A program made the translations under genes and the position numbers. Of a DNA stretch of 64,000 nucleotides, positions 9,273 through 38,668 are shown one piece after another (the first letter of the stretch is position 1; each line of letters begins with the position of its first letter). The stretch covers positions 1 through 64,000 of the IMG/VR virus record IMGVR_UViG_3300045738_001221, one strand, 5' to 3'. The notes beneath the pieces were generated by a model. That model saw only the letters and a list, made by a program, of their open reading frames with translations, was not told the origin of the DNA and ran no database searches. The stretch is from a virus.

Positions 9273-9273
9273 T

Positions 9274-10149: not shown

Positions 10150-10151
10150 AT

Positions 10152-11156: not shown

Positions 11157-12046
11157 TGAAAATTTTAGTTACCGGAGGGCGAGGCTTTATAGGAAGCCAC
11201 TTTGTAGAGGAAGCCCTTAAAAAAAACCATGTCATTGTTGACATAGACAAGATGGGATATGCTTCTCATAAAAAATTGCCGTGGGATAGCTCCTCACACT
11301 ATGAACTCATAAAAGAAGACATTAGCACTCTTTTTCACCTCCCGAACTCAGATTTGATCGTCAATTTTGCCGCCGAAAGCCATGTTGATAATTCAATTCG
11401 AGATTCAAGACCCTTCATAGACAGTAGCGTGCTAGGGGTTTGGAATTTATTGGAGTTACTTAGAGGCAAGCCTGAATACAACCGCCCTCTTTTTTTTCAC
11501 ATAAGCACAGACGAAGTTTACGGAGACCGACCGGTGGGCTCTTTTACAGAGAACGACTGTCTTTTACCGAGCAATCCCTACTCGGCTACCAAGGCGGCGG
11601 CAGAAATGCTGGTCGTTGCATACGCTAGAACTTACGGAATAGACTATATAATAACTAGAAGCAGCAATAATTATGGAGAAAGACAATATGAGGAAAAATT
11701 AATTTCCAAATGTATCTCTTCCTTACAGAATAATAAAAAAATTCCCGTTCACGGAGACGGCTCTTACATAAGAGACTGGCTCTATGTAAAGGACAACGTG
11801 GCAGCAATATTTCACATTATTGAAAGCGGAATTAAGAACGACTGTTTCAATGTGGGTGCAGAAAACTACATGACAAATCTAGAGGTAGTTCGTACTGTCA
11901 TCGAGTGGCTTGATAGAGAAGAAGACAGTATAGAGTTTGTTCCCAACCGGTGGGGTCAGGACGTTAGATATGCTATTGACACAACTAAACTGCGGAATTT
12001 GGGATGGTTTCCCTCTTGTCCGCAAGGTCTATTCAAATGGTTCTAA
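11156..12046 (+). CDS. NAD-dependent nucleotide-sugar dehydratase (RmlB-like SDR)
   Basis: Encodes 296 residues. TGGRGFIGSHFVEEAL is the NAD loop, HISTDEVYGD and NPYSATKAAAEMLV carry the Thr/Asp/Glu and Tyr-x3-Lys residues of 4,6-dehydratases, and ITRSSNNYGERQYEEKL is typical of RmlB. The likely reaction is NDP-hexose to NDP-4-keto-6-deoxyhexose. The C-terminus is shorter than usual (about 340). The sugar substrate is not determined by these motifs. Confidence 0.85.
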   Translation: MKILVTGGRGFIGSHFVEEALKKNHVIVDIDKMGYASHKKLPWDSSSHYELIKEDISTLFHLPNSDLIVNFAAESHVDNSIRDSRPFIDSSVLGVWNLLELLRGKPEYNRPLFFHISTDEVYGDRPVGSFTENDCLLPSNPYSATKAAAEMLVVAYARTYGIDYIITRSSNNYGERQYEEKLISKCISSLQNNKKIPVHGDGSYIRDWLYVKDNVAAIFHIIESGIKNDCFNVGAENYMTNLEVVRTVIEWLDREEDSIEFVPNRWGQDVRYAIDTTKLRNLGWFPSCPQGLFKWF

Positions 12047-12047
12047 A

Positions 12048-13733
12048 ATGTGTGGAATTGTAGGATACTGCGGATCACCGGAAGCCCTTCCTTTTTTAAT
12101 TACTGGATTAAAAAGGTTGGAGTATCGTGGCTACGATAGTCGTGGCTTTGCAGTTCAGAACGATGGAGTTACATCCATTCATAAAACTGTAGACCTGCAA
12201 TCCGAAACTCCCCTCCTTGAGGGCGGCCTAGGGGTTGGGCACACAAGATGGGCAACCACAGGCAAGGTCACCGACACAAATGCTCACCCCCACCAACACA
12301 AGGGAATTTCGGTTGTTCACAATGGAATAGTAGGCACCTATAAGGATCTCAAAGAGGAGCTTTTAAAGTTAGGTCACTCTTTTTCTTCAGAAACTGATTC
12401 CGAGGTCATTCCTCATGCTATTTCAGAATGGGGCATCGAGGAAGCCATCAAAAGGCTAGGCGATGACTGTGGTGCATTTTTAGCGATAGACGATTCAGAT
12501 CCAAACAAGATGTGGGCCTACTCAGACGGCGCTCCTCTCCTAATATCCGGTAGATATATTGCTAGCGATATCAATGCGTTGTCAGGATACACCGATCAAG
12601 CGTATAGGATAATTCCCAAAAGACTTCTTGTGATCGAAAAAGACATGAAGACCAAAGACTTCAAAGAAATGTGGCTTAATAATCTTGATCGTGACAATCC
12701 CATAAAAACTTTTGATATGAGAGAAAACGACAAGGGGCCATTTGAACACTACATGCTAAAGGAAATACATGAGCAACCCAACTGCTTGAAAGATATGTCG
12801 GGACGCATGTGTCCTGCCTACATAACGGCTCCTAAATTGCAACGGGCCGTTATACTAGGCTGCGGGACAAGCTATTACGCAGGCTTACTTTTAAAGCGAT
12901 ATCTCAAGGAAACCCATTCAGTAGAAACCTCGGTAGACTATGCCAGTGAGTTTGAATATAATGGTATAGACGATGGCACATACTATATTGCAATAAGCCA
13001 GAGTGGAGAAACTAAAGATGTTATTAATTCCATTAAGGACATACCTGCCCACAGAGTAATAACCTTTCACAATTCGCCCAACTCCACAATTACTAACTAT
13101 TCAAAACATAATAATTACATTCAAGCCGGTCTAGAGATAGGTGTGGCGGCGACTAAAACCTTTACAGCTAGCTGTATGAAGATGTGGCATTTTACGGAAT
13201 GGCTTAAGGACGAGAGCTACCATAAAAACTACGAACTTGCAGAAGATGTTAATTCCGTAATCAACATGTCAGATACGATATTCCATATAGCAGAACAAGT
13301 TTATCAGTACGACAACTTCTTGATTTTAGGATCTAGATATCACTATCCAATTGCCCTAGAGACAGCTCTAAAGATAAAGGAGGTTGCATATGTCCACGCC
13401 GAGGCGATGCCAGCCGCAGAAATGAAGCATGGCCCTTTGGCGCTTGTGGATTCAATGATACCCTCCGTTGTTTTTTGTATGGAGGGAGATGCCCACCAAA
13501 GAATTAAACACAACATTGAAGAAATAAAGAGCCGAGAAGGAAAGGTCTTGGTGATAACCAACTTAGATGACGTTGAAGCCGACTGGGTTATTAAAGTTCC
13601 AAAGAACAAACCCCCTTTGCAGCCCATTATTTCAGTAACGGCAGCGCAATTGCTTTCTTATCATATAGCAACCCTCCGAGGATGCAACGTAGACAGACCA
13701 AGGAATTTGGCGAAATCAGTAACAGTTCTATGA
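12048..13733 (+). CDS. glmS: Glutamine-fructose-6-phosphate aminotransferase
   Basis: Encodes 561 residues. I chose ATG 12048 because mature GlmS begins MCGIVGY with the Cys2 nucleophile; a start at 11937 would bury it. The glutaminase domain has YRGYDSRGF, GHTRWATTG, NAHPH and VVHNGIV. Two SIS domains follow with GCGTSYYAG and the sugar-phosphate serines of AISQSGET. It ends with PRNLAKSVTV. It makes glucosamine-6-phosphate, the entry to amino-sugar synthesis. Slightly shorter than the host enzyme (about 610). Confidence 0.95.
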   Translation: MCGIVGYCGSPEALPFLITGLKRLEYRGYDSRGFAVQNDGVTSIHKTVDLQSETPLLEGGLGVGHTRWATTGKVTDTNAHPHQHKGISVVHNGIVGTYKDLKEELLKLGHSFSSETDSEVIPHAISEWGIEEAIKRLGDDCGAFLAIDDSDPNKMWAYSDGAPLLISGRYIASDINALSGYTDQAYRIIPKRLLVIEKDMKTKDFKEMWLNNLDRDNPIKTFDMRENDKGPFEHYMLKEIHEQPNCLKDMSGRMCPAYITAPKLQRAVILGCGTSYYAGLLLKRYLKETHSVETSVDYASEFEYNGIDDGTYYIAISQSGETKDVINSIKDIPAHRVITFHNSPNSTITNYSKHNNYIQAGLEIGVAATKTFTASCMKMWHFTEWLKDESYHKNYELAEDVNSVINMSDTIFHIAEQVYQYDNFLILGSRYHYPIALETALKIKEVAYVHAEAMPAAEMKHGPLALVDSMIPSVVFCMEGDAHQRIKHNIEEIKSREGKVLVITNLDDVEADWVIKVPKNKPPLQPIISVTAAQLLSYHIATLRGCNVDRPRNLAKSVTVL

Positions 13734-14539
13734 AAAATTTCAAAGAAGAATTTTTTAAAATGCTATCTCTAGTTCAAGGGGGCACCCCTTTCGCCCTCTC
13801 TAGATTTTCTGATGGAGAGGTCACCGTACTTAAAAATAAAAGGCTTGTTCTCGCTGAAAATTATTTTATTCAGGGCGATGTTTATGGAGACAATGCAGTT
13901 CAAGCGCCAATACCCTACATGGAAGAGGAGAGAAAGGAATTTTGTCCAGACCAACATTCTTTTTATCAAAAGAAACTTATAGAATCTTTCAAATTTAGAA
14001 AGAAGAATTACTTCAAGGGAATTCCCGGCACGAACGAGTGGGGTAGCGATTCTTTTCACTACTGCGTAGCTCTTTACGAAGAGGGAGACACAGAGCACCT
14101 TACATTTGCTAATGTTTTGATCAACGGGAATTACGATCTCTTTATGAAGACGATGGTTCCTCAATTCAAGAACAGAAATATAGTAATTGTATGCAACGAA
14201 AATGCTAACTTTGAGGACCTACCCTTTGACATTCAAAAAGACTTTAGGGTGGGATCAAATTGTATGATAAATGACTATGCCCTTATAGATGAGATGAAAA
14301 ATTACATCAGAGAAAATAACATTAAAAACCATGTGTTTCTCTTCTCGGCCGCGACCCTAAGTAATTTTTTAATATATGAACTGTATAAAGAGTTTGACGA
14401 CAACCAATACATCGACATCGGCTCCGCCCTTTCACCCCTTCTCGGTTTGGAGGGCTGGCGAGGCACGCGAGTTTATTTACGTTGTTACTGGGAGGGTGAA
14501 AATAATTCTATCATAAGGCAGGAAGATTCATGGGGCTAA
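13730..14539 (+). CDS. GT-D-type glycosyltransferase-like protein (DUF1792-like)
   Basis: Encodes 269 residues from ATG 13730, overlapping the GlmS stop. FALSRFSDGEVTVL holds the DGE motif characteristic of GT-D-fold glycosyltransferases. The rest is mixed alpha/beta, with VFLFSAATLSNFLIYELYKE near the end. A GGCACGCGAG repeat lies inside the 3' coding end (14462). The fold assignment is by motif only. Confidence 0.6.
   Translation: MKNFKEEFFKMLSLVQGGTPFALSRFSDGEVTVLKNKRLVLAENYFIQGDVYGDNAVQAPIPYMEEERKEFCPDQHSFYQKKLIESFKFRKKNYFKGIPGTNEWGSDSFHYCVALYEEGDTEHLTFANVLINGNYDLFMKTMVPQFKNRNIVIVCNENANFEDLPFDIQKDFRVGSNCMINDYALIDEMKNYIRENNIKNHVFLFSAATLSNFLIYELYKEFDDNQYIDIGSALSPLLGLEGWRGTRVYLRCYWEGENNSIIRQEDSWG
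14462..14471 (+). repeat. Dispersed GGCACGCGAG copy
   Basis: Exact 10-base match to the repeat core, followed by TTTATTTA, much like the second copy at 6050. It lies inside the 3' part of the GT-D-like gene, in a different reading frame from the copy at 8508. Confidence 0.6.
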
Positions 14540-14910
14540 AATTAGTAGATTGCAGCAGAAAGTATTGGGATTTTGTAATGGAGCTTAGGAACGGCCTGAG
14601 AGAAGGGTTTGTTTGTCAAGGCTTAATTGAAAAAGAAGATCATTACAAATATATGGAAAAGTATTCTGATCATTATTACATATGTTTAGAGGGCGAGATA
14701 CCCGTAGGCTGGGTAGGAAGTATAGACCAAGACATTCGAGTGGCTACACATCCTGACCACCAAAAAAAGGGGATCGGTAAATTTTTGATTAACGAGGTAA
14801 TGGTTCGCCATCCAGATGCTTTTGCGAAGGTAAAATTAGATAACGAAGCTAGCATTAGACTGTTTGAATCCTGTGACTTTAAGAAAAAATATTATATCTT
14901 AGAAAAATGA
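14530..14910 (+). CDS. GNAT-family acetyltransferase
   Basis: Encodes 126 residues. The acetyl-CoA loop region IRVATHPDHQKKGIGKFLI has the Q/R-x-x-G-x-G/A pattern, followed by the C-terminal NEASIRLFESCDF typical of GNATs. It overlaps both neighbours by 4-10 bases. In this context it may N- or O-acetylate a sugar, but protein substrates are equally possible. Confidence 0.8.
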   Translation: MGLKLVDCSRKYWDFVMELRNGLREGFVCQGLIEKEDHYKYMEKYSDHYYICLEGEIPVGWVGSIDQDIRVATHPDHQKKGIGKFLINEVMVRHPDAFAKVKLDNEASIRLFESCDFKKKYYILEK

Positions 14911-15827
14911 ATTACGACGGAAAGGAAACATACTCTTGTCACCCTACAGTACTTAATAAATTATTCATAGACTCTTTTGAGCAGCATAAAACGTTAAGAG
15001 ATGCTGACCTTTTAAACCCACGTCTGGTTGGTCCGCGTAAGAACGGATGTTCCTGCAAGGATTGCATAACGATAAACAGCTTTGATGATGATATATTTGT
15101 AGTAATTCAAGGCCACACAGAACACATAGCCGATATTTTACGAAGCTATGGCGGCTATAAAAATATCATTTGGGCTTTAGACGATAAATGTTCTATTAAA
15201 GATTACGATATGATTAGTTCCCATTCGCAGATAAATACTTGCGTGGCTGATGTTGGTGATTTCGGTGGGTTCGGCAATGTAAATTTTCAAACAAGATCGA
15301 CTGTCGCGGGTGTAAAATACGCTAAATCTTTAGGAGCAAAATATTGTATTAAAATACGTTCTGATATGGCGTTCTTTCCCTTGCATAAATTTATTAATAG
15401 TATGAATTTTGATAAATTAGGATTTTTATACCACTCCGATTTTGGATATTTTGATTTTGATAAGCCAGACTATGGCGTCCATCAATACAAAAGGTCTTTT
15501 GTTGAGCATTACGAATTAGAGGATAATCACAACATATCTAACGATTACGTGTGTGATTTCTGTGTGACTGGGCCAGTAGATGAGGTGATTGATTTTTTTG
15601 ATTGGGAAGAATCGACCCTCGTCCCATCTATTGTAGAGTTCAAGCTACTGTGGCATTACATGTTGAGAAAGGGATACTACATGGACACCAGTAAAGAATC
15701 TTTGTTTGAAAAGTTTTATTTTTTTATTGATATGTTACAAAAACAACAAATAGACTTAGTATCGTTTAAGCATAATTATAAAAATCTTACGAACCATAAA
15801 CGACCTCGTGGTTACCTGTATTCCTAA
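14907..15827 (+). CDS. WavE-like lipopolysaccharide synthesis protein
   Basis: Encodes 306 residues. NVNFQTRSTVAGVKYAKSLG and KYCIKIRSDMAFFPL match the WavE family pattern (N-x-Q-x3-S, then KIRSDM). These proteins are believed to be glycosyltransferases of surface polysaccharide synthesis. DDDIFVVIQGHTE precedes the core. The substrate is unknown. Confidence 0.7.
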   Translation: MNYDGKETYSCHPTVLNKLFIDSFEQHKTLRDADLLNPRLVGPRKNGCSCKDCITINSFDDDIFVVIQGHTEHIADILRSYGGYKNIIWALDDKCSIKDYDMISSHSQINTCVADVGDFGGFGNVNFQTRSTVAGVKYAKSLGAKYCIKIRSDMAFFPLHKFINSMNFDKLGFLYHSDFGYFDFDKPDYGVHQYKRSFVEHYELEDNHNISNDYVCDFCVTGPVDEVIDFFDWEESTLVPSIVEFKLLWHYMLRKGYYMDTSKESLFEKFYFFIDMLQKQQIDLVSFKHNYKNLTNHKRPRGYLYS

Positions 15828-15850
15828 TATCACTGGAGTTCTCACTAAGT

Positions 15851-16462
15851 ATGCTTAGAAATCCATTCCAAATAGTCAGATGGTTTGAGGAAGAAATAGC
15901 CCACTACGCAGGGGCCCCTTATGCCATAGCAACCGATAGCTGCACGAACGCCATCTTCCTATCCTGTAAACATTTAGGCGTAGACGGACACACAGTAACC
16001 ATACCAAAGAGAACATACCTTTCTGTGCCACAATCAATTAGACAGGCTGACGGAATTTTACAGTTTGAAGATCTAGACTGGCAAGGAATTTATCAACTGA
16101 AACCATTCCCTATTTATGATGCGGCCAAAAGACTGACTTCCGATATGTACATACCCGGAAGCCTTATGTGTCTATCTTTTCATTTCAAAAAGCATTTAAA
16201 AATTGGGAAAGGGGGAATGATTCTGACTGACGACGTAGTGGCACTCGAACGTATAAAAAGGATGCGGTACGAAGGAAGAACAGAAGGAATTTCTTATCAT
16301 GAAGATATAATAGATGAGGAGGGATGGAATATGTACATGACTCCTGAGCAGGCAGCAAGAGGCCTAATATTGCTGAGTAACTATCCAGAGCACGCAGAGG
16401 ATCAAATTGAAAATCCTCCCTATAGAGACCTGACTGAATTCAATCTATTTAAAGGACTTTAA
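15851..16462 (+). CDS. Short DegT/DnrJ/EryC1-type PLP protein
   Basis: Encodes 203 residues, about half the usual 370-400 of sugar aminotransferases. The part present includes YAIATDSCTNAIFLSCKHLG (cofactor-binding region), PIYDAAKRL and CLSFHFKKHLKIGKGGMI, where the PLP lysine lies. The C-terminal domain is reduced to about 30 residues after TPEQAARG. It may be a minimal enzyme, a regulator or a decayed copy. Confidence 0.65.
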   Translation: MLRNPFQIVRWFEEEIAHYAGAPYAIATDSCTNAIFLSCKHLGVDGHTVTIPKRTYLSVPQSIRQADGILQFEDLDWQGIYQLKPFPIYDAAKRLTSDMYIPGSLMCLSFHFKKHLKIGKGGMILTDDVVALERIKRMRYEGRTEGISYHEDIIDEEGWNMYMTPEQAARGLILLSNYPEHAEDQIENPPYRDLTEFNLFKGL

Positions 16463-16463
16463 A

Positions 16464-17267
16464 ATGAAGAAGTCCAATCCGAAGAAGAAGGTTTCCATAG
16501 ACCTGAGCAACCGAAGAACCTTAGCCCAAAGTCTTAGCAATTCACTTCATGCCCTGCTCCAGCTCAACATCGTGCAGGAAGACCAGCGTGCCATCAACGC
16601 GCAACCGATTATCTACCCGTTCCCGGCGGTTAGTCAGATTTATTCTAAGAGCAGATGGGATCAGCTTTCTGAAAAGCAGCAAGAGCAAAGGATAAATCTG
16701 AGCAACCGAAGAACCTTAGTCCAAAGTCTCAACACAAAAGATTATAAAACAGCGGTTGAAGTCGGAGTTAGGCTGGGATGGTTTAGTAAATATATTCTTG
16801 ACCATACAAGCATGAAGGTATTTTGTATTGACCCTTGGGAAAATAATGCCCAACTTTCAAATGCTGAGAGTGCTTTAAGGGAGTGTTCAGAGAGGCTAGC
16901 TCCCTACGGAGAACGCGCGTCAATGGTAAAAGGTTATAGCCAGCAAGAAGCAGAAAAATTTTCAGATGAAAGTATTGATTTCGTTTATATTGATGGCCTT
17001 CATGATTACGAGTCGGTCAAGGGAGACATTAATGGCTGGTGGAGCAAAGTGTCACAAGGAGGCATTCTCTCAGGGCATGATTTCAACAGGAGAAAGTGGA
17101 AAGGCGTTGTTGTTGCTGTAGAGGAATTTTGCAATGAAAATAATACAAATTGTTATTTAACTGGAACTGTTGGAAATGCTATACAATCTTTTTCTGGAGA
17201 TATAGATGAATATGATGGGGACGAACTTAGTTGGGTAATTATAAAAGGAGACAGTGATGTTGTCTAG
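16464..17267 (+). CDS. SAM-dependent methyltransferase with duplicated N-terminal segment
   Basis: Encodes 267 residues. From about residue 93 it is a class I methyltransferase: TAVEVGVRLGWFSKYIL, VFCIDPWE, DFVYIDGLHDYESVKGDI and SGHDF. The N-terminus has LSNRRTLxQSL at residues 14 and 79; the DNA around 16503 and 16698 is almost identical over about 30 bases. Between them lies a 165-base stretch with more GC and different codon use. That looks like an insertion flanked by a direct repeat. Target unknown. Confidence 0.75.
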   Translation: MKKSNPKKKVSIDLSNRRTLAQSLSNSLHALLQLNIVQEDQRAINAQPIIYPFPAVSQIYSKSRWDQLSEKQQEQRINLSNRRTLVQSLNTKDYKTAVEVGVRLGWFSKYILDHTSMKVFCIDPWENNAQLSNAESALRECSERLAPYGERASMVKGYSQQEAEKFSDESIDFVYIDGLHDYESVKGDINGWWSKVSQGGILSGHDFNRRKWKGVVVAVEEFCNENNTNCYLTGTVGNAIQSFSGDIDEYDGDELSWVIIKGDSDVV

Positions 17268-18027
17268 AGAATGGCTTCAGAAAACTAAACTTTCAGAAAT
17301 AAAAGAGATACCTCCAGAATGTAACAAGTTGTTTATAGACGTAGGGACTGCAATAGACGCCCCTAATTCAGCAGCATGGATTTTTGACTATAAAGAAGCC
17401 TTTGTAATTGGAATAGAGCCAAGCCCTATCAATATGGAGATACTTAAGAAGGGTCGTCCCCATGTGGATAACTTACCGTACTTATGTCTGGACGCAGGGC
17501 ATGCCGTATTAAATGATCAGAAGAAAGAGATAGGAGGCCGGTTTCAATTATTGGAATGTGCTATAGGCAATGTAGAAGACCCTACTCTTTTACCTTTCTA
17601 CTTCACAAACGAAATAAACACAGGATGTTCAAGTTTACTAAAACCCACTATTAAGTTGGATCTAATCTTCGGCACTTCTTGTGTCGATAAGGTTTGTAAT
17701 GTTCCAGTGATTTCGCTAAAAGATGTTTTAGATAATATTCCTTTTAAAGAATTTGGATATGTTACTTATCTAAAAACTGATTGTCAAGGAACTGACCTAG
17801 AGGTAGTCAAAAGCTGCAAAAAATACTTGAAGAGCGTGCTATTAATTCAAATGGAAGTTCAGACAGGCGGACAATACGAAAAAGAACAAAGTATAGAAGA
17901 TATAGATTCTTTCATGCGGTCTGCTGGATTTGTCCAGAAAGCCGAGCACCCTTATGACCGAGTCTATATCAATGAAGACCTTGCAAGATCTGTAGAAGTC
18001 CCAGAAGTGAGATTCATATCAACATAA
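17257..18027 (+). CDS. FkbM-family methyltransferase
   Basis: Encodes 256 residues from ATG 17257 with AAAGGAG upstream. KLFIDVGTAIDAPNSAAW, AFVIGIEPSPINMEIL, FQLLECAIGN and the FkbM tail VTYLKTDCQGTDLEVVKS are visible. FkbM enzymes usually methylate sugars or polyketides. It overlaps the previous gene by 11 bases, so the two methyltransferases are probably co-translated. Confidence 0.82.
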   Translation: MLSREWLQKTKLSEIKEIPPECNKLFIDVGTAIDAPNSAAWIFDYKEAFVIGIEPSPINMEILKKGRPHVDNLPYLCLDAGHAVLNDQKKEIGGRFQLLECAIGNVEDPTLLPFYFTNEINTGCSSLLKPTIKLDLIFGTSCVDKVCNVPVISLKDVLDNIPFKEFGYVTYLKTDCQGTDLEVVKSCKKYLKSVLLIQMEVQTGGQYEKEQSIEDIDSFMRSAGFVQKAEHPYDRVYINEDLARSVEVPEVRFIST

Positions 18028-18028
18028 T

Positions 18029-18907
18029 ATGATTACATTTTACGAGCTTGGAAGTCTAGGTAGACTAGGGAACCAACTATTTCAATATGCTGCACTACGA
18101 GGACTTGGCCTAAAGAGGGGGTATGAAACTAAAATACCCGACCCCAGCAAACGACAATGGCACGGACAGGAGTGTTTGCTAGGCAACTTTAACATCCAGT
18201 CTCCTTATCTGGATGACAATGAAGAAGATTTGTTGCAAATACATAATATGTATTCTGAGCCAAATTCTATGGTTTTTGATGATGGTTTTTTTAATATTCC
18301 AGATAACACTAACCTTACGGGGTTCTTTCAAAGTATTTACTATTTTAAAGACCAACAAGAAGAGATAAAAAAAGAGCTTACTCCTAAAGATTGTCATTTA
18401 AAGAAGGCTACTGAAGAGTTTTTGAAACTAAAAGAGAAATTCCCTGAGCATGAGATCGTTTCACTTCACGTTAGACGGGGGGATAATACAGACAACGTAG
18501 ACCCAAACCAATATTCTTTGAGCGAGTACTACAGTCCTAGTGGGTTATATCATCAGTATTTAGGACAAGCGTTTGAATCCTTTGAAGGTCGTAAGGTCAG
18601 GTACTTGGTATTTACAGGTGGCAAGCGTGGTAGTGAAGACAATGTTAGCGATATTGAATGGGCAAAAGACAGCTTCAGAGGAGATGAGTTTATTTTTTCT
18701 GAAGGCAGAAGTCCTTTGGAAGATTTTTGTTTAATCATGAAATGCAATCATCATATTGTATCTCCTTCCAGTACTTTCGGTTGGTGGGCAGCTTACTTAG
18801 TAACAAGAAAAGAAAAAATTATAATTGCACCTCTTAAATATCAACCGGAACTGGTAGATATAAATTATAGGCCCGGTTTTTATCCAGAGGAGTGGAAACT
18901 ATTATGA
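18029..18907 (+). CDS. Alpha-1,2-fucosyltransferase-like (GT11)
   Basis: Encodes 292 residues with the three GT11 signatures: GRLGNQLFQYAALRGLG near the start, VSLHVRRGD in the middle, and VSPSSTFGWWAAYL near the end. GT11 enzymes add fucose from GDP-fucose to galactose in alpha-1,2 linkage. Two GDP-fucose-synthase-like genes follow at 19838 and 20815, which fits the use of that donor. Confidence 0.88.
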   Translation: MITFYELGSLGRLGNQLFQYAALRGLGLKRGYETKIPDPSKRQWHGQECLLGNFNIQSPYLDDNEEDLLQIHNMYSEPNSMVFDDGFFNIPDNTNLTGFFQSIYYFKDQQEEIKKELTPKDCHLKKATEEFLKLKEKFPEHEIVSLHVRRGDNTDNVDPNQYSLSEYYSPSGLYHQYLGQAFESFEGRKVRYLVFTGGKRGSEDNVSDIEWAKDSFRGDEFIFSEGRSPLEDFCLIMKCNHHIVSPSSTFGWWAAYLVTRKEKIIIAPLKYQPELVDINYRPGFYPEEWKLL

Positions 18908-19845
18908 AAATTGTATCTGACATGAGTGGAGACTACGCAGATGGGGTCACCGCTAATCTGAAACTAGAATATCTTTCTGAAGACAATAGTGAGGAGGTAT
19001 TGTTCTGCGGCTATAACTCTATAATGAATTCTGATCTTCAAGAAAAGTATTCTTCGTACAAGAGAAAAGTGCTATTAAACCTATGGACTCCTACTGATTT
19101 TTTACTTATTGGAGATGACAGAGGAAGAAACGCTATCGAACAGCCAAGCTTTTTTGATGAAATTTATACTATCTGTCCTTATACGATTGACTGGCACCAC
19201 AGACACCACGGAGACAATAGGTATAAATATATTTTTCATCCCTTTGATGGAAGCCATGTGCCAGTGGACTACGAGAAAGATGCAGATGTCTGTTATTTTG
19301 GAGGAATTCATGGGAATGACCACTTAGAGATGATAGAGGGGATGAGGGGATTTAATTACCGCGTAATTTCTATGCTCAACAACCGTTTTGTAACTCATCA
19401 TAATATTCCTCACCATGAAAAATTAAACGTAGTGGCAAAGACTAAGATAAGTTTATGCGTAAACCTGCTGCCCTTAGAACCTAAGCATGTTTTGTATCTC
19501 ACAAATTACGACGCATGGGATAAAAATGTTGCGTTTAGGTCTTGTGAGCAGGGATTAATTCCCCAATATAAATGTAGGGCCGCAGAAGCTGCTTTTTGTA
19601 AAAGCTTACTGCTTGTTAAAAGAGATCCTTGGAATCTAATAGAACACTATTTTGTTCCTGATGAAGAGTTTATTTACTATAGTGATACGCAAGACTTGAA
19701 AGAAAAAATATTTTATATAATAAATAATTATGACCAATTCCAAGTAATGATAGAGAAAGCATATAAGCGATCTTTGAACTACACATCAAAACCCTTGGTT
19801 GATATAATCAAGAGCAAAAAAGAATGGAGACCTTTAAATGTATGA
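18904..19845 (+). CDS. Glycosyltransferase, GT-B fold (CgeB-like)
   Basis: Encodes 313 residues from ATG 18904 (an upstream in-frame GTG at 18892 is less likely). The C-terminal half, KCRAAEAAFCKSLLLVKRD, PDEEFIYYSDTQDLKEKI and a final helix, is typical of CgeB/GT1-type enzymes. The N-terminus is His-rich (DWHHRHHGDNR). It overlaps both neighbours. Confidence 0.65.
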   Translation: MKIVSDMSGDYADGVTANLKLEYLSEDNSEEVLFCGYNSIMNSDLQEKYSSYKRKVLLNLWTPTDFLLIGDDRGRNAIEQPSFFDEIYTICPYTIDWHHRHHGDNRYKYIFHPFDGSHVPVDYEKDADVCYFGGIHGNDHLEMIEGMRGFNYRVISMLNNRFVTHHNIPHHEKLNVVAKTKISLCVNLLPLEPKHVLYLTNYDAWDKNVAFRSCEQGLIPQYKCRAAEAAFCKSLLLVKRDPWNLIEHYFVPDEEFIYYSDTQDLKEKIFYIINNYDQFQVMIEKAYKRSLNYTSKPLVDIIKSKKEWRPLNV

Positions 19846-20785
19846 TGTTGAAAATAAAAATATTTTAATAACTGGGGGCACCGGCTTTGTGGGGAAGAAT
19901 ATTGTTCCCCTTTTGGAAAAAGAAGGAGCCAACGTAACAGCAACGGGCAGAGATTACGACTTGTCAGTTTTTTCCGAGAGTGAAAAGCTCTTTACCTTAA
20001 AAAAATATGATTTGATTATTCACGCTGCTGCCTTTCAGGGCGCTGGGGATTTTCCTTTACGATATCCGGCCGACCAGTTTATGATTAATAACCTTATTCA
20101 TACTCACGCTCTCCATATGTGGAAGGAACATCAGTCGCAAGCGACCTTTGTAGGGATTGGCTCTACTTGTTCATACCCCGGAAATCTGGCTGTTCTTAGA
20201 GAAGAGGATTATTTTACAGGCCCATTGCATGAGTCGGTTGAAACATATGGGCTGACTAAGTGTGTGCTGCAAAAAGGTATCGAAGCCTATAAGAAACAAT
20301 ATGGTTTAAAAGGCACGACCGTGGTATTTGCTACATTATATGGTCCACACGATGAATTTGATCTGGAAAAGAGTCATGTCGTATCCGCTTTGGTAAAGAA
20401 ATTCTGCGATGCAAAACAGTTCGACTTACCAGAGGTTGAGATCTGGGGCGATGGCACCCAAACAAGAGAGCTTATCTATGTAGAAGATCAAATTAAGGGA
20501 CTTTTGGCTACTTGTGAATATGAAGGCGATCTTATAAATATTGGAACGGGAATTGAAACCACCATTAGAGACTTGGCGGAAACAATAAGTAACCTGACTG
20601 GTTTCGCAGGGAGTATAATTTATAATACAGACAAATTTGTAGGCGTTAAAAGAAAAGTGTTAGACGTTTCTAAAGCTGAAAGTTTATACGGGTGGACAAC
20701 AAAAGAGGGTTACGTCTTGATACCGCTAGAAGATGGGCTTGAACGTACTATCACATGGTATAGACGCAACTATCTGGAGAAATAA
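19838..20785 (+). CDS. NAD(P)-dependent sugar reductase/epimerase (GDP-fucose synthase-like)
   Basis: Encodes 315 residues. ITGGTGFVGKNIVPLL is the cofactor loop, followed by HAAAFQGAG, GIGSTCSYPGNL and ETYGLTKCVLQ with Tyr-x3-Lys. It follows the Fcl/WcaG layout but is more divergent than the next gene. The substrate is probably an NDP-4-keto-6-deoxy sugar. Confidence 0.78.
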   Translation: MYDVENKNILITGGTGFVGKNIVPLLEKEGANVTATGRDYDLSVFSESEKLFTLKKYDLIIHAAAFQGAGDFPLRYPADQFMINNLIHTHALHMWKEHQSQATFVGIGSTCSYPGNLAVLREEDYFTGPLHESVETYGLTKCVLQKGIEAYKKQYGLKGTTVVFATLYGPHDEFDLEKSHVVSALVKKFCDAKQFDLPEVEIWGDGTQTRELIYVEDQIKGLLATCEYEGDLINIGTGIETTIRDLAETISNLTGFAGSIIYNTDKFVGVKRKVLDVSKAESLYGWTTKEGYVLIPLEDGLERTITWYRRNYLEK

Positions 20786-20814
20786 ACAAACCCAAATTAC
20801 TGGGAAAATAAAAC

Positions 20815-21771
20815 ATGCCGAATATTAACAAAAACGATACAATAGTTGTTACCGGGGGAACCGGGTTCTTGGGTCGCGCAGTAGTTTCCAAGCTATCAGA
20901 GGAGGGGTATACGAACGTAGTGCCTCTTGGTTCATCTGACTATGATCTTAGAAAATTTGACTCGGTAGAAGCTATGTATAACCATAGGCAGCCTGATGTT
21001 ATAATTCATTTAGCAGCAACGGTGGGCGGCATAGGTGCAAATAAAAAAAACCCCGGAAGATTCATGTATGAAAATCTTATAATGGGGGCCAATCTAATTG
21101 AGGCTGGAAGGCATGAAGATTTAAAGAAGTTTATTATGGTAGGGACTGTGTGTGCTTATCCTAAATTTACTCCAGTTCCTTTTGAAGAAAAAGATATTTG
21201 GAATGGCTATCCAGAGGAAACAAATGCACCTTACGGAATAGCTAAAAAGACCTTGATGCAATTAATCATTTCCTACAAGGAGCAATATGGCTTTAACGGC
21301 ATCAATCTAATTCCAGTGAATATGTATGGGCCACATGATAATTTTGACCCTGAGATAAGCCACGTTATACCTGCTCTTATCCTTAAATTCCATCAGGCAA
21401 CCCTCTCCGATTTGCATTCTCCAATGAACATCTGGGGAACTGGGTCTGCCAGTCGAGAATTTCTGTATTCGGAAGATTGCGCAGAGGCCATAGCGTCCTC
21501 CATGTTGATTCATAATGACCCCCAGCCAGTCAATATTGGAACTGGCGTGGAGATTACTATTAAAAACTTGGCGCATTTGATAGCTGATAAAATGGGTTAC
21601 AAAGGACATATGATATTTGATACCACCAAACCAGATGGACAGCCCCGTAGATGTTTAAACACAGACAGGGCTAGGCGGGAGTTTGGTTTCGTTGCTAAAA
21701 TATCATTTGAAGAAGGCATAGAAAAAACTATAAAATGGTTTAGAAAAAACTATGACGGTAGATATGATTAA
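20815..21771 (+). CDS. fcl: GDP-L-fucose synthase-like reductase/epimerase
   Basis: Encodes 318 residues. VVTGGTGFLGRAVVSKL, HLAATVGGIGANKKNPGRF, GTVCAYPKFTPVPF and TNAPYGIAKKTLMQL are the standard Fcl/WcaG signatures, including Ser/Thr-Tyr-Lys. The enzyme makes GDP-L-fucose from GDP-4-keto-6-deoxymannose. No GDP-mannose 4,6-dehydratase (Gmd) is seen in the window, so the substrate may come from the host or be another sugar, such as a heptose. Confidence 0.85.
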   Translation: MPNINKNDTIVVTGGTGFLGRAVVSKLSEEGYTNVVPLGSSDYDLRKFDSVEAMYNHRQPDVIIHLAATVGGIGANKKNPGRFMYENLIMGANLIEAGRHEDLKKFIMVGTVCAYPKFTPVPFEEKDIWNGYPEETNAPYGIAKKTLMQLIISYKEQYGFNGINLIPVNMYGPHDNFDPEISHVIPALILKFHQATLSDLHSPMNIWGTGSASREFLYSEDCAEAIASSMLIHNDPQPVNIGTGVEITIKNLAHLIADKMGYKGHMIFDTTKPDGQPRRCLNTDRARREFGFVAKISFEEGIEKTIKWFRKNYDGRYD

Positions 21772-21827
21772 GTTAGGTTTTTTGGTTGGCAATTTGTGGC
21801 CCTCAATTAGGATATTATATTAGCAAA

Positions 21828-22793
21828 ATGAAGATATTAATAACCGGAGCCGGTGGCTACATAGGCTCGATGCTAACTTGGTATCTTAAGTCTATTGTTA
21901 CGAACGCTCAGGTCTTTGCGTTTGATAATTTTATATACGGTCAGGGAGCACAGCTATATCACTTGCTGACTAACAAGTCTAAATTTTATCAAGAAGATGT
22001 AAGGCATTTTAGCGACAATCTGAGACGCTGCATAAAAGAAGCCGACGTTATAATTCCGCTTGCTGCAATAGTAGGTGCTCCTGCGTGTGATAAAATACCA
22101 AAGTATGCGGTAGACATTAACTATAGGTGGTACGAGAGGCTTTTGGAAGAAAACATTTCAGAAAAATTAATTATTTATCCCAATACGAATTCTGGGTATG
22201 GCTCTACAGGAGAGGAAATCTGCACTGAAGAAACTCCGTCTAGACCCCTCTCTCTCTATGGGGAGACTAAGCAGAATACAGAAGACTTCTTGCTAAGAAA
22301 CCACCCCAACACAGTCTGCTTTCGCTTGGCTACAGTTTTTGGCTGGTCTTACAGGCCACGCCTTGATCTCCTAGTAAACAACCTAACATACGAGGCCAAA
22401 TTCAATAAACATATTGATGTTTTTGACGGTCACTTTAGAAGAAACTATATTCATATACAAGATATATGCAGGGCGTTTAAGTTTGCTATACGAAATTCCG
22501 AAAAAATGAAAGGTCAGGTATACAACCTTGGCAACGACGACGCCAACATGACCAAAAAGGAATTAGTGGAGCTGGTTTGTGGATTGACGGGGGCTTCCTT
22601 CTCGGAGATTAGCAATCGAACAGACCCGGACAAGCGAGACTATGTAGTAAGCAGCCAAAAGCTCTATGATTTAGGATACTATGCCGCCTTCGGCGTAGAG
22701 AAGGGAGTTAAAGAGATCATTGATTTCCTAGGATATCTATCGCTAGACAAGAAGACACGCCAGTTACAAATCTCCCATATGTTTAACTACTAA
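21828..22793 (+). CDS. NAD-dependent nucleotide-sugar epimerase (SDR)
   Basis: Encodes 321 residues from ATG 21828; the sequence upstream of it is not typical protein. MKILITGAGGYIGSMLTWYL is the cofactor loop, and IPLAAIVGAPACD, NTNSGYGS and SLYGETKQNTE follow. It ends one base into the heptose-kinase-like gene. The position suggests it acts on the same sugar as the next three genes. Confidence 0.8.
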   Translation: MKILITGAGGYIGSMLTWYLKSIVTNAQVFAFDNFIYGQGAQLYHLLTNKSKFYQEDVRHFSDNLRRCIKEADVIIPLAAIVGAPACDKIPKYAVDINYRWYERLLEENISEKLIIYPNTNSGYGSTGEEICTEETPSRPLSLYGETKQNTEDFLLRNHPNTVCFRLATVFGWSYRPRLDLLVNNLTYEAKFNKHIDVFDGHFRRNYIHIQDICRAFKFAIRNSEKMKGQVYNLGNDDANMTKKELVELVCGLTGASFSEISNRTDPDKRDYVVSSQKLYDLGYYAAFGVEKGVKEIIDFLGYLSLDKKTRQLQISHMFNY

Positions 22794-23788
22794 TGATTAT
22801 CACCAGAGTACCCTTTAGACTCTCCCTGTTTGGAGGCTCTACAGATTATGAATCCTTTTACAGTAAGCACGGTTCCCTGTGTATTGGTGCAACTATAGAC
22901 AAATACGTGTACACTTCGATCAGGTTTCGACCCAAGGTTGTTGATCACGAAAGCGTAATAGCTTACTCTAAACTAGAGAGAACTCCAAACCATGCCTCGA
23001 TTGAAAATCCTCTCATTAGGGAATCTCTATTGAAGTTCAATGTCAACAGGGCTGTTGATCTGCACCTTTTCGCAGATATCCCAAGCAGAACGGGGCTCGG
23101 GGGCTCTTCTTCCTGTTGTGTGAGCCTTTGTTATTCAATAAGAAAGCTCCTAGGCCTTCCTGTGGACAAGCGATTGATTGCCCTTGATGCTATTGACATA
23201 GAAAGAAGGTCTCTGGGTGAGCCGGGAGGAATCCAAGATCAAATATGGGCTGCATACGGAGGACTAAACTCTATTGAAATAAAAAAAGATGGTAACTTTC
23301 GTGTTAAACCACTCCCCGTTACAAAAGAATTTATTCAAGACTTCGAGTCTTCTATATTTCTTGTTTATACAAACACGCAAAGAGACACCCACAACATAGC
23401 GGCAAGCCACGACTCAAGAGGCTCATTAAAAGCCAGACTTTTCATTAAAAAATTGGCCTTTGAAGCCTACAGGCTATTCTGCAAAGAAAACATCAAAGAA
23501 ATTGGCGAACTAATGCTGGAGACTTGGAACCAAAAAAAGAAAATATCCAATTCCATATGCACACCAGAGATAGAAAGGCTTGAGGGCTTCTTGTTGTCCA
23601 AGAAAATATATGGCATGAAGCTGCTAGGTAGCGGAGGGAGTGGATTTATTGCGGTTTTATGCAGGAAAAGAAATAAAAAAAGACTGATGAACGCTATAGA
23701 AAAAAAATATGAGGTGTTAGATTTGAGGGTAGAATTTAATGGAGCACAAAGCATCTTAGAGGAAAAAAATGACAACGTTATTTATTGA
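22793..23788 (+). CDS. hddA: GHMP sugar kinase, HddA-like
   Basis: Encodes 331 residues. TRVPFRLSLFGGSTDYESF, the GHMP loop DIPSRTGLGGSSSCCVS, GEPGGIQDQIWAAYGGLN and KLLGSGGSGFIAVL are typical of D-glycero-D-manno-heptose-7-phosphate kinases. It would make the 1,7-bisphosphate with ATP. It is followed at once by a HAD phosphatase and a nucleotidylyltransferase, the order of a nucleotide-heptose pathway. Confidence 0.82.
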   Translation: MIITRVPFRLSLFGGSTDYESFYSKHGSLCIGATIDKYVYTSIRFRPKVVDHESVIAYSKLERTPNHASIENPLIRESLLKFNVNRAVDLHLFADIPSRTGLGGSSSCCVSLCYSIRKLLGLPVDKRLIALDAIDIERRSLGEPGGIQDQIWAAYGGLNSIEIKKDGNFRVKPLPVTKEFIQDFESSIFLVYTNTQRDTHNIAASHDSRGSLKARLFIKKLAFEAYRLFCKENIKEIGELMLETWNQKKKISNSICTPEIERLEGFLLSKKIYGMKLLGSGGSGFIAVLCRKRNKKRLMNAIEKKYEVLDLRVEFNGAQSILEEKNDNVIY

Positions 23789-24113
23789 CATTGATGGAAC
23801 TTTATTTAAACATCAAGGAACATTCAGTGACATTTGCATGAAAGAAGCCACCCTCCTGCCAAATGTTAGAGAAAAAATGAACGAATGGTGCGCCAAGGAG
23901 TATAAAATAATATTGACCACAGCTAGAAGAGAAAGCATGAGGTCAATAACAGAGACGCAGCTCTCTAGGCTTGGTGTACCTTATGATATATTAGTTATGG
24001 GTATTAGCAAGGGGCATCGAATAATTATTAACGACAGGCGTCCCAGTGGAGACAAGACGGCCTTTGCGATAAACGTTGGAAGAGATCATGGTCTTGGAGA
24101 TGCCAACGTATGA
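23769..24113 (+). CDS. HAD-family phosphatase
   Basis: Encodes 114 residues. TLFIDIDGTLF is HAD motif I, ILTTARRES motif II, and INDRRPSGDK motif IV. It overlaps the kinase by 20 bases. Its place between kinase and nucleotidylyltransferase suggests removal of the 7-phosphate of heptose-1,7-bisphosphate (a GmhB-like role), but the sequence itself does not show this. Confidence 0.75.
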   Translation: MTTLFIDIDGTLFKHQGTFSDICMKEATLLPNVREKMNEWCAKEYKIILTTARRESMRSITETQLSRLGVPYDILVMGISKGHRIIINDRRPSGDKTAFAINVGRDHGLGDANV

Positions 24114-24550
24114 GGGTAGTAGTTATATCGGGATACTTTAATCCTTTACACGCAGGGCACTTAGACTACATTAAGGGCGCGTATGAATTAGGAGACAGGC
24201 TTGTTGTTATAGTTAATAACGACGCTCAAGTTGAGGTAAAGGGCTCTACGCCTTTTATGAACGAATCTGATCGCATGCGTATAGTAAGTGCCATTAAAGG
24301 AGTTGACCAAGTAGTTTTATCAAGAGATACTGATTCTTCTGTTGTCCAAACGTTAAGCGCGGTTTATGGTGAATACGCCATTGATTACTTTTTTGATAGT
24401 ATGATATTTGCAAACGGTGGGGATAGAACTAGAGTAGATTCCCCGGAGGAGTCTTATTGTCGGTGGAGAAAAATTAAAACAGTATACGGAGTGGGAGGTG
24501 AAAAGACAGAATCTTCTAGCAGCCTACTAAATAAAAAAATCACAAAGTAA
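24110..24550 (+). CDS. Cytidylyltransferase-like nucleotidylyltransferase
   Basis: Encodes 146 residues. VVISGYFNPLHAGHLDYIKGA holds the HxGH motif of the nucleotidylyltransferase superfamily, and VNNDAQVEVKGSTPFM and NESDRMRIVSAIKGV are also typical (compare TagD and the HldE C-terminal domain). It probably activates the sugar-1-phosphate made by the two preceding genes. Confidence 0.82.
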   Translation: MRVVVISGYFNPLHAGHLDYIKGAYELGDRLVVIVNNDAQVEVKGSTPFMNESDRMRIVSAIKGVDQVVLSRDTDSSVVQTLSAVYGEYAIDYFFDSMIFANGGDRTRVDSPEESYCRWRKIKTVYGVGGEKTESSSSLLNKKITK

Positions 24551-24565
24551 AATAAGGGGATTATA

Positions 24566-24838
24566 ATGACAATAAGTCTGCACGAGATGGGCGAAGGATA
24601 TATACAGAGTCTTAAATACAGAATAGAACGTAGCCAGCAGGAGGTACAGGAGCTTGTCCAACACCTTCAAGAGTGCGAAAATACCTTAAGCTTTGAAAAA
24701 AGTTCCAATCAATTCACCGAATGCTGCAATGCAGAATCTGATAAATACAATAGCACAGAAATCAAAGGGGGCGAAACGGCATCGACTGAGCATGTTGAAG
24801 AATATAAGCATGGAGTGGTTGATCAAGAGGCCACTTAA
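24566..24838 (+). CDS. Small helical protein overlapping the tmRNA 5' end
   Basis: Encodes 90 residues from ATG 24566 with AAGGGG upstream. The first half is coiled-coil-like (YIQSLKYRIERSQQEVQELV). Its last 72 bases lie inside the tmRNA gene, so the C-terminal residues may be incidental. A real gene with an overlapping end is plausible, but the C-terminus is uncertain. Confidence 0.45.
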   Translation: MTISLHEMGEGYIQSLKYRIERSQQEVQELVQHLQECENTLSFEKSSNQFTECCNAESDKYNSTEIKGGETASTEHVEEYKHGVVDQEAT

Positions 24839-25108
24839 AAACTTGATCAAACTAATAATTGCTGAAAAAGAAATTTTAGCGTTAGCTGCCTAGCAGCGGG
24901 GGTCGTGCCAACCCTCTTGCCAAATTGCACCGACTCCGATAATTCGGATAGAGTTCCCCCGCCTTGAATTAAGCAGGGGTGATAGCAATAATTTGCTTGA
25001 CTCAGATAACTCTGATAGCCTTGTTCATTGTGCGAATACAATGCACTAATCATGTAGAAAGTATTTGGATAATGTTACAGGACGCGGGTTCGACTCCCGC
25101 CGCCTCCA
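24767..25108 (+). ncRNA. ssrA: tmRNA (one-piece SsrA)
   Basis: The 5' end GGGGGCGAAACGGCATCGACT pairs with the 3' end CGCCTCC through a 7-base acceptor stem containing the G3-U pair used by alanyl-tRNA synthetase. The T arm is GCGGG-TTCGACT-CCCGC, with CATGTAG and GGACGCGGG upstream as in bacterial tmRNAs. The tag frame from GCT 24861 reads AEKEILALAA and ends with TAG 24891, giving an ALAA degron. The discriminator is A25108 and CCA is not encoded. It rescues stalled ribosomes and tags their products. Confidence 0.96.
24861..24893 (+). other. tmRNA tag-peptide reading frame
   Basis: Ten codons from a GCT resume codon encode AEKEILALAA, followed by TAG. The length equals the Escherichia coli tag, and the ALAA end fits recognition by ClpXP-type proteases. 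Confidence 0.9.
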
Positions 25109-25120
25109 CTAAGGAAAAAC

Positions 25121-25306
25121 ATGAGCGACTATCAAAACAAACGGAAATTCAAAAAAAGGCAAAAGAAGAAAGAGGTGAGAAGAAAGAAGATGATGGCAAG
25201 AAGAAAGTCCATACTGGAAGAAAAGCAAGTGCAAAAGCTTATTGACAAAATGAACTATGAGTCTAGAGAAAGATTACGACCTATTAAAAGCCATAAGGAA
25301 GAATGA
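25121..25306 (+). CDS. Small highly basic protein
   Basis: Encodes 61 residues starting 12 bases after the tmRNA end, with AAGGA upstream. More than a third of the residues are Lys or Arg (KKRQKKKEVRRKK). It may bind nucleic acid; its place next to the tmRNA is suggestive only. An overlapping frame that crosses the tmRNA is rejected. Confidence 0.65.
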   Translation: MSDYQNKRKFKKRQKKKEVRRKKMMARRKSILEEKQVQKLIDKMNYESRERLRPIKSHKEE

Positions 25307-26146: not shown

Positions 26147-26812
26147 ATGTCAAATGATAGAAGAAAATTTTTACAGACTTGCGGTATAGCATCATTCATA
26201 GGAATAAATTTTTCACTTACTAGCGAATTACTGGCCGAGCCTCACAGGAAAAAGGGGGACTGTTTCTGTAATGTCGCCAAAATGGCTCAGGGAAACGCTA
26301 TCCTAGGCAAAGGAAGATGGGGTAGGAAACATCTTAGATACCTTATCTCAGACAGGGATGAACAGGATTTAACAAAAGAAGCTTGGGACAATGAATTTAA
26401 ACTCGCCTTTAGCGCGTGGTCTGAAATCACCCCCCTTACCTTTGAACAGGTCGATGAAGACGGCGTGTATGACATTGTAATATCGGTAGGAGACAAGAAG
26501 TGGGAGGGTTTTGGTCGAGAGGGAGGCATTCTGGCTTGGGCTCAAATGCCGCCGACAAGAAACTTTGATGGGATTCTTTTGTCAAAATTTGACCTAGCGG
26601 AAAATTGGATATTGCCAGAAACAAATGTCATTGCAATTTGGCCACCGACTGGAATTATTCTGAGATCAGTTGCTTGTCATGAAATAGGCCATTTGCTTGG
26701 TCTTCAACATTCCCAAGACCCAAACGCTTTAATGTATCCCTATATTAACAACTCTCTTAAACCGAAAGAAGATGATATTAAAAAGATTCAAAAGCTATAT
26801 GGTAAAAAATAG
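26147..26812 (+). CDS. Tat-exported matrixin-like zinc metalloprotease
   Basis: Encodes 221 residues. The N-terminus DRRKFLQTCGIASFIGINFS is a twin-arginine signal. The catalytic site HEIGHLLGLQHS gives H178, E179, H182 and H188, with the metzincin Met-turn at ALMYP (M196). ITPLTFEQV before it is typical of matrixins. The product would be secreted folded by the host Tat system. A Tat-dependent protease in a phage is unusual; it may act on host surface proteins. Confidence 0.85.
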   Translation: MSNDRRKFLQTCGIASFIGINFSLTSELLAEPHRKKGDCFCNVAKMAQGNAILGKGRWGRKHLRYLISDRDEQDLTKEAWDNEFKLAFSAWSEITPLTFEQVDEDGVYDIVISVGDKKWEGFGREGGILAWAQMPPTRNFDGILLSKFDLAENWILPETNVIAIWPPTGIILRSVACHEIGHLLGLQHSQDPNALMYPYINNSLKPKEDDIKKIQKLYGKK

Positions 26813-36200: not shown

Positions 36201-37451
36201 ATGCTAGACTTTTATTCAAACAGACGTGACTTTCTAAGGATAGGCAGTATTGGAGCAGGGATGTCCGCTCTAGGGCTTTCTGATATTGCTATGGGTCAGG
36301 AAGAGGCGCAAGAACTTAAAGATAGCTCTGTCGTGTGGGTATGGCTTGGGGGAGGCCCAACACAATTTGAAACATTCCACGCCCCAAAGGAAGACAGTGT
36401 TCCCTCTGAATACAGATCTGTGGGCGGCGCTTTGGTGGACAAGCCAACCGGAATGGCCTTTGGTTCTCATTGGCAAAACCTGATTAAGCAGGCCCCCAAG
36501 CTGAATGTAGTAGACTCCTTCACTCACGGAGACTCTTCTCACAGGCAGGCTACTCACTGGGTAATGACTTCCCACTACAACAAAGAACGAAGTCAAACAT
36601 CTAACTCTATGTTCCCATCTCATGGGTCTATTGTGTCTGCTGTCTATGGTGCCAACAACCCCAAAAACGGAGTTCCTACATATGTTAAACAGGGCAGGAT
36701 AGAAGGTGAAGATCCAGCGTGGTTGGGCGGAGCATACAAACCCTTCGACCCTTCAAATAAAGACAACCTAACCCCCAGAGTAGACATTGAGAGATTTACA
36801 AATAGAAATGAACTATTAAAGTCTCTTGCGGGTGTTAATATTCCTAGTCCATCAGCAGACTCTGTTACCAAATTCAATCAGCAGGCATTTGATGTAATCC
36901 TTGGAACAGCTAAAGACGCATTCAACTTGGACAAAGAAGATACAAAAATGAAGGAGGCTTATGGCGACACCCCAATTGGGAAACAACTCCTTCTTGCTCG
37001 GCGTCTATGTCAGTTTGGAACAAGGTTTGTTACTATCAATTATGGTGGTTGGGACATGCATGGCAACATCGCAAACGCACTTAAGGGAAGAGTTCCCCCT
37101 ATCGACAAAGCTCTTGCGGCTTTTGTAGAAGACGTGCAGCAAAGAGGTCTTAATGAAAAGATTCTCTTGATTGTCACTGGTGAATTTGGCCGTACCAAAC
37201 TTAACGCCAATGCGGGCCGCGATCATTGGCCCTCGATTTCCACAATGCTTATGTCGGGTGGAAGATATGACAGCGGTAGGGTTATAGGGAAGGCCGATAA
37301 GTCTTATACTCCATCGGAAAGTCCCTTTGGGCCTATCGATGTAGCTGCTACTATGTTTGATCATTTTGGCATTAATAAGAATATTCAGAGGGTTGACAAT
37401 GGGGGTCGTCCAAGATATTTGCTGGAAGGTGAAGCGAAAGTTATTTTATAA
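36201..37451 (+). CDS. DUF1501 protein with Tat signal (first copy)
   Basis: Encodes 416 residues. The N-terminus has RRDFLRIGSIGAGMSALGLS, a twin-arginine signal. The core has LGGGPTQFETFH, FTHGDSSHRQATHWVM, YGGWDMHGN, TGEFGRTKLNANAGRDHWPS and FGPIDVAATMFDHFGI, typical of DUF1501, a group in the alkaline-phosphatase/sulfatase superfamily that is abundant in Planctomycetota. The product would be exported folded. Substrate unknown; its presence in a phage is striking. Confidence 0.88.
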   Translation: MLDFYSNRRDFLRIGSIGAGMSALGLSDIAMGQEEAQELKDSSVVWVWLGGGPTQFETFHAPKEDSVPSEYRSVGGALVDKPTGMAFGSHWQNLIKQAPKLNVVDSFTHGDSSHRQATHWVMTSHYNKERSQTSNSMFPSHGSIVSAVYGANNPKNGVPTYVKQGRIEGEDPAWLGGAYKPFDPSNKDNLTPRVDIERFTNRNELLKSLAGVNIPSPSADSVTKFNQQAFDVILGTAKDAFNLDKEDTKMKEAYGDTPIGKQLLLARRLCQFGTRFVTINYGGWDMHGNIANALKGRVPPIDKALAAFVEDVQQRGLNEKILLIVTGEFGRTKLNANAGRDHWPSISTMLMSGGRYDSGRVIGKADKSYTPSESPFGPIDVAATMFDHFGINKNIQRVDNGGRPRYLLEGEAKVIL

Positions 37452-37621: not shown

Positions 37622-37833
37622 CAATTATGCTAAGAAAAGCAGCACTTCTGCTTGGTGTGTTTGGCGTCGGTGCGTGGCTAATGTACTCAGCCCAAAATGG
37701 AAATTATGAAAGGCAAGACCTTCTCAAAGGAATAGCCTTGTGGTCACTTATTGGTTCCTTTGGACTATACATATGTTCGACGGGATTACTCAAGTTTCAT
37801 AGTCGAACTGTTGATAGGAAGGATAACCAATGA
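37618..37833 (+). CDS. Small two-helix membrane protein
   Basis: Encodes 71 residues with GGAGG upstream and hydrophobic segments [17 protein letters not shown] and [20 protein letters not shown]. Overlaps both neighbours by 4 bases. Function unknown; it sits between an exported DUF1501 and an Fe-S carrier. Confidence 0.6.
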
Positions 37834-38153
37834 CAATTAAGTTAACAGAATCCGCAGGAGCAGAGGCTAAGAAATATCTTGAAGATACCGAAGAAAAGTA
37901 TCTAAGGATTGCCGTGGAGGGCGGTGGATGCTCTGGCTTTCAGTATAATTTAACAGTAGTCGATGACTACGATGAAGAAAAAGATACACTGTCTAATCAA
38001 CATGGCGTAGACGTTATCGTAGACAAGAAAAGCGATCTATACTTAGATGGCACCACCTTAGATTATTATACCGACATTTCCAAGCGTGGTTTTATGTTTG
38101 ACAACCCAAACGCAGTTAAATCCTGTGGTTGCGGAAGCAGTTTTCAGGTATAA
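37830..38153 (+). CDS. A-type iron-sulfur carrier (IscA/ErpA/HesB family)
   Basis: Encodes 107 residues. GGGCSGFQY (C34) and SCGCGSSF (C99, C101) are the three invariant cysteines, and the [13 protein letters not shown] start is typical. These proteins pass Fe-S clusters to client enzymes. Possible clients here are the Cas4/RecB-like nuclease (50543) or host proteins. Confidence 0.9.
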
Positions 38154-38383: not shown

Positions 38384-38668
38384 ATGGTTAAACTAGGAGA
38401 TTGGTTACAAAGAACGGAATGTCCGCTTGCGGGGAAAGCTCCGTTTGACTGACATGAATATTCTATCGCACAGGTTGTGCGTATTGACAAGGAGTATGTT
38501 GAGGTCAACTTTGCTTGTAACTGCATGACCTTCGACAGTAGTAATACAAAAATGTGGTATCATGGAGAATATAAGCCCATCGACGACGAATCTTATGTAA
38601 CACATAAGAAATCCCACGATAGTTGCTGCCTATTTGATAAAGAATTAGAGATTGAATATGCAGCGTAG
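38384..38668 (+). pseudogene. Small Cys-rich gene interrupted by an in-frame TGA
   Basis: From ATG 38384, with a strong AAGGAG site, the frame reads 22 codons ending KAPFD, then TGA (38450-38452), then continues in the same frame for 71 codons (HEYSIAQVVRIDKEYVEV, FACNCMTF, HDSCCLFDKELEIEY). TGA could be a mutated TGG. GTG 38477 offers a restart without a ribosome site. Many other genes end with TGA, so a recoded genome is unlikely. Readthrough, mutation or sequencing error remain possible. Confidence 0.6.

Follow-up and report, generated by a model that had tools for sequence, protein, structure and literature searches.

Architecture and surroundings of the tmRNA gene

The DNA analysed here (the window) is a stretch of 64,000 nucleotides from a 76,366-base IMG/VR record, and it carries on its plus strand a complete phage-borne, one-piece tmRNA (ssrA) gene at 24767-25108, that is, 342 nt to the discriminator base. 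ARAGORN reports a tmRNA of standard form with the tag AEKEILALAA at 24767-25109, and the Rfam covariance model RF00023 (gathering score 47) matches the locus over model positions 1-374 with 130.6 bits (E = 8.1e-51), a score far above chance. The form called by ARAGORN and the collinearity of the Rfam match both indicate no circular permutation, and no riboswitch was found with this tmRNA in the Rfam search. The initial annotation, made from the letters alone, had proposed a complete tmRNA in a phage genome, with a 7-bp acceptor stem including a G3-U pair, a T arm, a resume codon, a ten-residue tag closed by TAG and a 3' end at 25108; all of these features are present, and the covariance model supports the gene as a whole.

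The acceptor stem is formed by GGGGGCG (24767-24773) and CGCCTCC, the latter followed by the discriminator A (25101-25108), giving 7 bp with G3 opposite U70. The bases directly 3' of 25108 are CTA, so that CCA is not encoded and must be added. The T arm (GCGGG-TTCGACT-CCCGC, 25084-25100) is paired in 100% of the aligned cells, and the alanine identity of the tRNA-like domain (G3-U70, discriminator A and T arm) is invariant in all 12 sequences aligned. The inner H2 helix has its 5' strand GCATG at 24808-24812 and its partner at 25051-25055; it is paired in 60 of 60 cells, with two-sided changes at two positions. In pseudoknot PK1 (24814-24848) both stems pair, as the initial annotation expected of a genuine tmRNA: stem a joins AGTGG (24814-24818) to CCACT (24831-24835) and stem b joins GATCAAG (24821-24827) to CTTGATC (24842-24848). 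The tag reading frame (24861-24893), which was also aligned with those of the relatives, starts at the resume codon GCT at 24861 and comprises ten codons, the last three specifying a hydrophobic residue and Ala-Ala, before the stop codon TAG at 24891-24893. This stop codon lies at the loop of helix H5 (GCTGC/GCAGC, 24885-24897), whose pairing is partial in the alignment. Modules PK2 to PK4 look structured and covarying by eye and with RNAalifold; they are divergent from the Rfam consensus and have low posterior probability there.

Genes are tightly packed around the tmRNA, and at 9 of 11 further distinct loci 0-18 nt separate it from the end of the coding gene upstream. In the window, a 90-aa ORF on the plus strand (24566-24838) has its last 72 nt within the tmRNA, whose 5' end coincides with the junction of codons 67 and 68 (a codon boundary is expected by chance one time in three). 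Over 45 aa, the N-terminal half of this ORF shares 36% identity with an ORF of the related record G021 whose end lies upstream of the tmRNA there. On the other side, a small Lys/Arg-rich gene had been noted 12 bases downstream, and an ORF of 61 aa with 39% Lys+Arg indeed starts at that distance past 25108 (25121-25306, plus strand). The protein found no relative as a single-sequence query; a search with the protein-family alignment gave six loci, three of them in records that were already part of the analysis. The family (58-69 aa) is conserved downstream of phage tmRNAs, with a gene within about 0.5 kb of the tmRNA in six loci. A profile search of 37 records added one copy only, beside a tRNA-Arg(TCT) in a record where no tmRNA was detected. 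The association between gene and tmRNA (Fisher p = 0.007) is weakened by the initial detection of these six genes next to tmRNAs and by the relatedness of the records. The protein is possibly RNA-binding.

A tRNA-Ile(TAT) and a tRNA-Arg(TCT) often flank the tmRNA block; the latter, which stands beside the tmRNA in several relatives, is found in the window at 2340-2412 on the plus strand. Scans for promoters and terminators gave no more hits than in shuffles. Just upstream of the tmRNA lies a long sugar-nucleotide and glycan block (7343-24550) with epimerases, a GHMP kinase, a HAD phosphatase and cytidylyltransferase-like and glycosyltransferase-like proteins, and a matrixin-type (M10) metallopeptidase with a twin-arginine-like N-terminus is encoded at 26147-26812.

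Related tmRNAs, covariation and tags

Whole-record scans of related phage records, chosen by their ribonucleotide reductase (RNR), revealed a tmRNA in 9 of 46, and in 7 of the 14 RNR-relative records of at least 60 kb. A search limited to 10 kb around the relatives' RNR had found none, a misleading result in view of these nine. A T-arm scan yielded three further tmRNAs (G047, G048 and G049), and another of the family sits on a phage contig that forms part of a SAR202 MAG (G051). ARAGORN missed or misread the tmRNAs of L205, L208, L212 and L213, which were read with cmscan and by hand. Since half of the long relatives, whose records are fragments, have no detected tmRNA, the gene is not essential to the phage group. 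The initial annotation had described phage tmRNAs as known but rare. That they are known is correct; "rare" is an overstatement given the proportion among the long relatives, the 402 of 18,146 phage genomes (2.3%) reported to carry a tmRNA (PMC9004378), and at least 120 IMG/VR loci matching one strict T-arm pattern, a count to which two-piece tmRNAs and perhaps some host DNA contribute.

The tmRNA of this phage group is under selection, because related phages show compensatory changes in its base pairs. In an alignment of 12 tmRNA sequences (A1), the 41 tested pairs of H2, PK1, H5 and the T arm form in 92.2% of the cells, and two-sided changes occur in 23 of them, more than in any of the 500 shuffles or any of the slid controls. 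The observed covariation score of 0.427 compares with 0.194 for shuffled and at most 0.08 for slid alignments; relatedness is not removed by the shuffle control and is kept by the slid control, whose values stay below the observed one. Both stems of PK1 covary, with both sides changed at six of the seven positions of stem b. The acceptor stem of G039 has been rewritten to GGGCCGG/CCGGTCC with G3-U70 retained, and the conservation of this pair and of discriminator A throughout the 12 sequences is as one would expect if alanyl-tRNA synthetase (AlaRS) charges the RNA.

The tag frame is retained in all relatives. Their tags are AEKQFALAA (three records), AEKQYALAA, AESNLAIAA, AEKNFSLAA, AEKNFALAA, AEHSFAMAA, AEPSLAMAA, AEPSFAIAA and GVTQLALAA (three near-identical records), so that within the group the sequence is variable and the end, a hydrophobic residue followed by two alanines, is constant. 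The records with GVTQLALAA (L209, L210 and L211) use a Gly resume codon and have a rewritten acceptor stem that still contains G3-U70. A tag of ten residues is unique to the window among these relatives and stems from an in-frame insertion of 3 nt.

The phage, its likely host and the age of the gene

The record encodes a phage-type RNR, a replicative helicase, a primase, DNA polymerase III-like subunits, a sigma factor, a UvsX-like recombinase and PhoH. A terminase search of the record matched the PhoH gene only, and the genes scanned revealed neither a terminase nor a capsid protein, so the record is probably a fragment. A tailed phage is the best reading, since relatives of its RNR are encoded in 567 viral stretches and a terminase-like gene is present in the related record G015. 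The DNA polymerase III alpha-like protein is split between two ORFs (52092-53957 and 54751-56385), which correspond to consecutive portions of phrog_405 and are separated by an exonuclease-like ORF. A RuvB-like Holliday junction helicase (2771-3742) and an IscA/HesB-type iron-sulphur assembly protein (37830-38153) are also encoded.

The host is likely a member of the Planctomycetota, as judged from sequence similarity. Proteins from 20 Planctomycetota MAGs, most of them marine Pirellulales, share 61-72% identity with the DUF1501 protein at 38652-39878, and the phage tags look like those of Pirellulales. We keep this assignment at "likely" because contigs of the phage family also occur in the SAR202 MAG; the DUF1501 match in that MAG is ambiguous for the same reason and was set aside as host evidence. 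These contigs belong either to a phage of SAR202 or to a binning error. The phage is probably marine. Two further observations concern the same material: the phage has a second DUF1501 protein (36201-37451), the family being typical of Planctomycetota, and the contigs in question (MAG VFHP01; L263 and L271, corresponding to G051 contigs C13 and C7) bring their own tmRNA with the tag AEKNFALAA.

A FastTree analysis, which combined the 12 phage tmRNAs with those of Pirellulales and with other viral ones, unites 11 of the 12 in one clade (0.998) apart from Pirellulales ssrA, and the G039-type tmRNA groups with the viral locus L116 (0.999). We rely on these two groupings only, as tmRNA alignments are noisy at such distances. 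The separation from Pirellulales ssrA indicates that this is an old phage gene.

Proposed role and comparison with known systems

We consider it highly probable that the gene specifies a functional one-piece tmRNA which frees stalled ribosomes together with host factors. It would probably be co-transcribed with phage genes and released from the operon transcript by RNase P at 24767 followed by 3' trimming, after which the host would add CCA and host AlaRS would charge the RNA with alanine via G3-U70. No SmpB was found in the window's record or in 15 related phage records, which points to dependence on host SmpB, and SmpB is encoded by a Pirellulales MAG that contains a close DUF1501 relative; with host SmpB, the tmRNA could enter ribosomes that stall during infection on broken or degraded messages, append AEKEILALAA to the unfinished protein and free the ribosome, leaving the tagged fragment to the ordinary host protease for ssrA tags (ClpXP type). 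The phage would gain by keeping ribosomes available. As the host has an ssrA of its own, this gain is unproven; host SsrA persists while T4 infects the cell (PMC9697503), which fits the idea that phages profit from rescue.

The initial annotation had suggested that a tag of its own could direct stalled proteins to a chosen protease. That the tmRNA mainly retargets tagged proteins in this way, or protects them, would be in keeping with a tag that is one residue longer than those of the relatives, that is encoded nowhere else in the viral or genome collections in any codons, and that belongs to a set differing between related phages. It is nevertheless decidedly unlikely, and the suggestion is left unsupported, because AEKEILALAA, compared with tags of candidate hosts as had been proposed, resembles them: it shares the A-E-x start and the ALAA end with Pirellulales AEDNLALAA and AEKDLALAA (ADNNLALAA is a third tag of similar appearance), and the hydrophobic-Ala-Ala end recurs in all phage tags. 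The RNA might instead act as a decoy, titrating SmpB or AlaRS and so blocking host rescue. Such a role has been proposed for the TLD-only RNA of phage DS6A, which is similar to a molecule with demonstrated inhibition of tmRNA (PMC4131195), and SmpB was not found in the present phages; a decoy, however, has no need of a maintained tag frame and PK1, yet both are kept in all relatives, which makes this role very improbable. Hardly credible, finally, is a functionless passenger, either a recently captured host ssrA or a relic of an ssrA attachment site. Integration at ssrA is common, and one origin proposed for phage copies of the gene is imprecise excision (PMC9004378). The gene here, however, is full length and untruncated, the phage tmRNAs occupy branches of the tree separate from Pirellulales ssrA, and compensatory changes speak of long selection, so that covariation largely refutes this origin.

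An extension of the preferred reading, ribosome rescue with host factors, takes in the neighbouring genes. ArfA is known for self-limiting expression; by analogy, release of the tmRNA by RNase P would cut the ORF at 24566-24838 after codon 67, leaving a non-stop mRNA whose product would be tagged by the same tmRNA, and the Lys/Arg-rich protein would serve the phage tmRNA as an RNA-binding helper. Such a rescue module strikes us as unlikely.

Phage tmRNAs are already known, ten of them being listed in PMC4131195, and among the one-piece phage tmRNAs surveyed in PMC9004378 only 2.5% were marine. The marine Methylophilales myophage Melnitz (PMC9004378) likewise has a complete tmRNA, with a proposed role in maintaining the hijacked translation machinery, but that tmRNA is permuted, two-piece and accompanied by a glutamine riboswitch. 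The tmRNAs of actinobacteriophages (the mycobacteriophage Bxz1 and Streptomyces phage Karimac groups) are one-piece like the window's, and the T-arm region of the Karimac group is about 87-90% identical to it over about 48 nt; beyond this universal 3' region there is no similarity, the tags differ (e.g. ANSNVASAYALAA), and the phages and hosts are others. The chromosomal ssrA of Pirellulales (Planctomycetota) shares the one-piece form, the mostly absent CCA and the tag type, whereas it measures about 354-360 nt without CCA, has other PK2-PK4 sequences and occupies a separate branch of the tree. A megablast of 24 kb of the window against INPHARED phages returned nothing. The window's tmRNA thus represents a new, well-supported lineage: an old one-piece phage tmRNA carried by a widespread group of phages whose hosts are probably Planctomycetota. 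Relatives with and without the gene open the question of why phages carry tmRNA to comparison and to laboratory tests.
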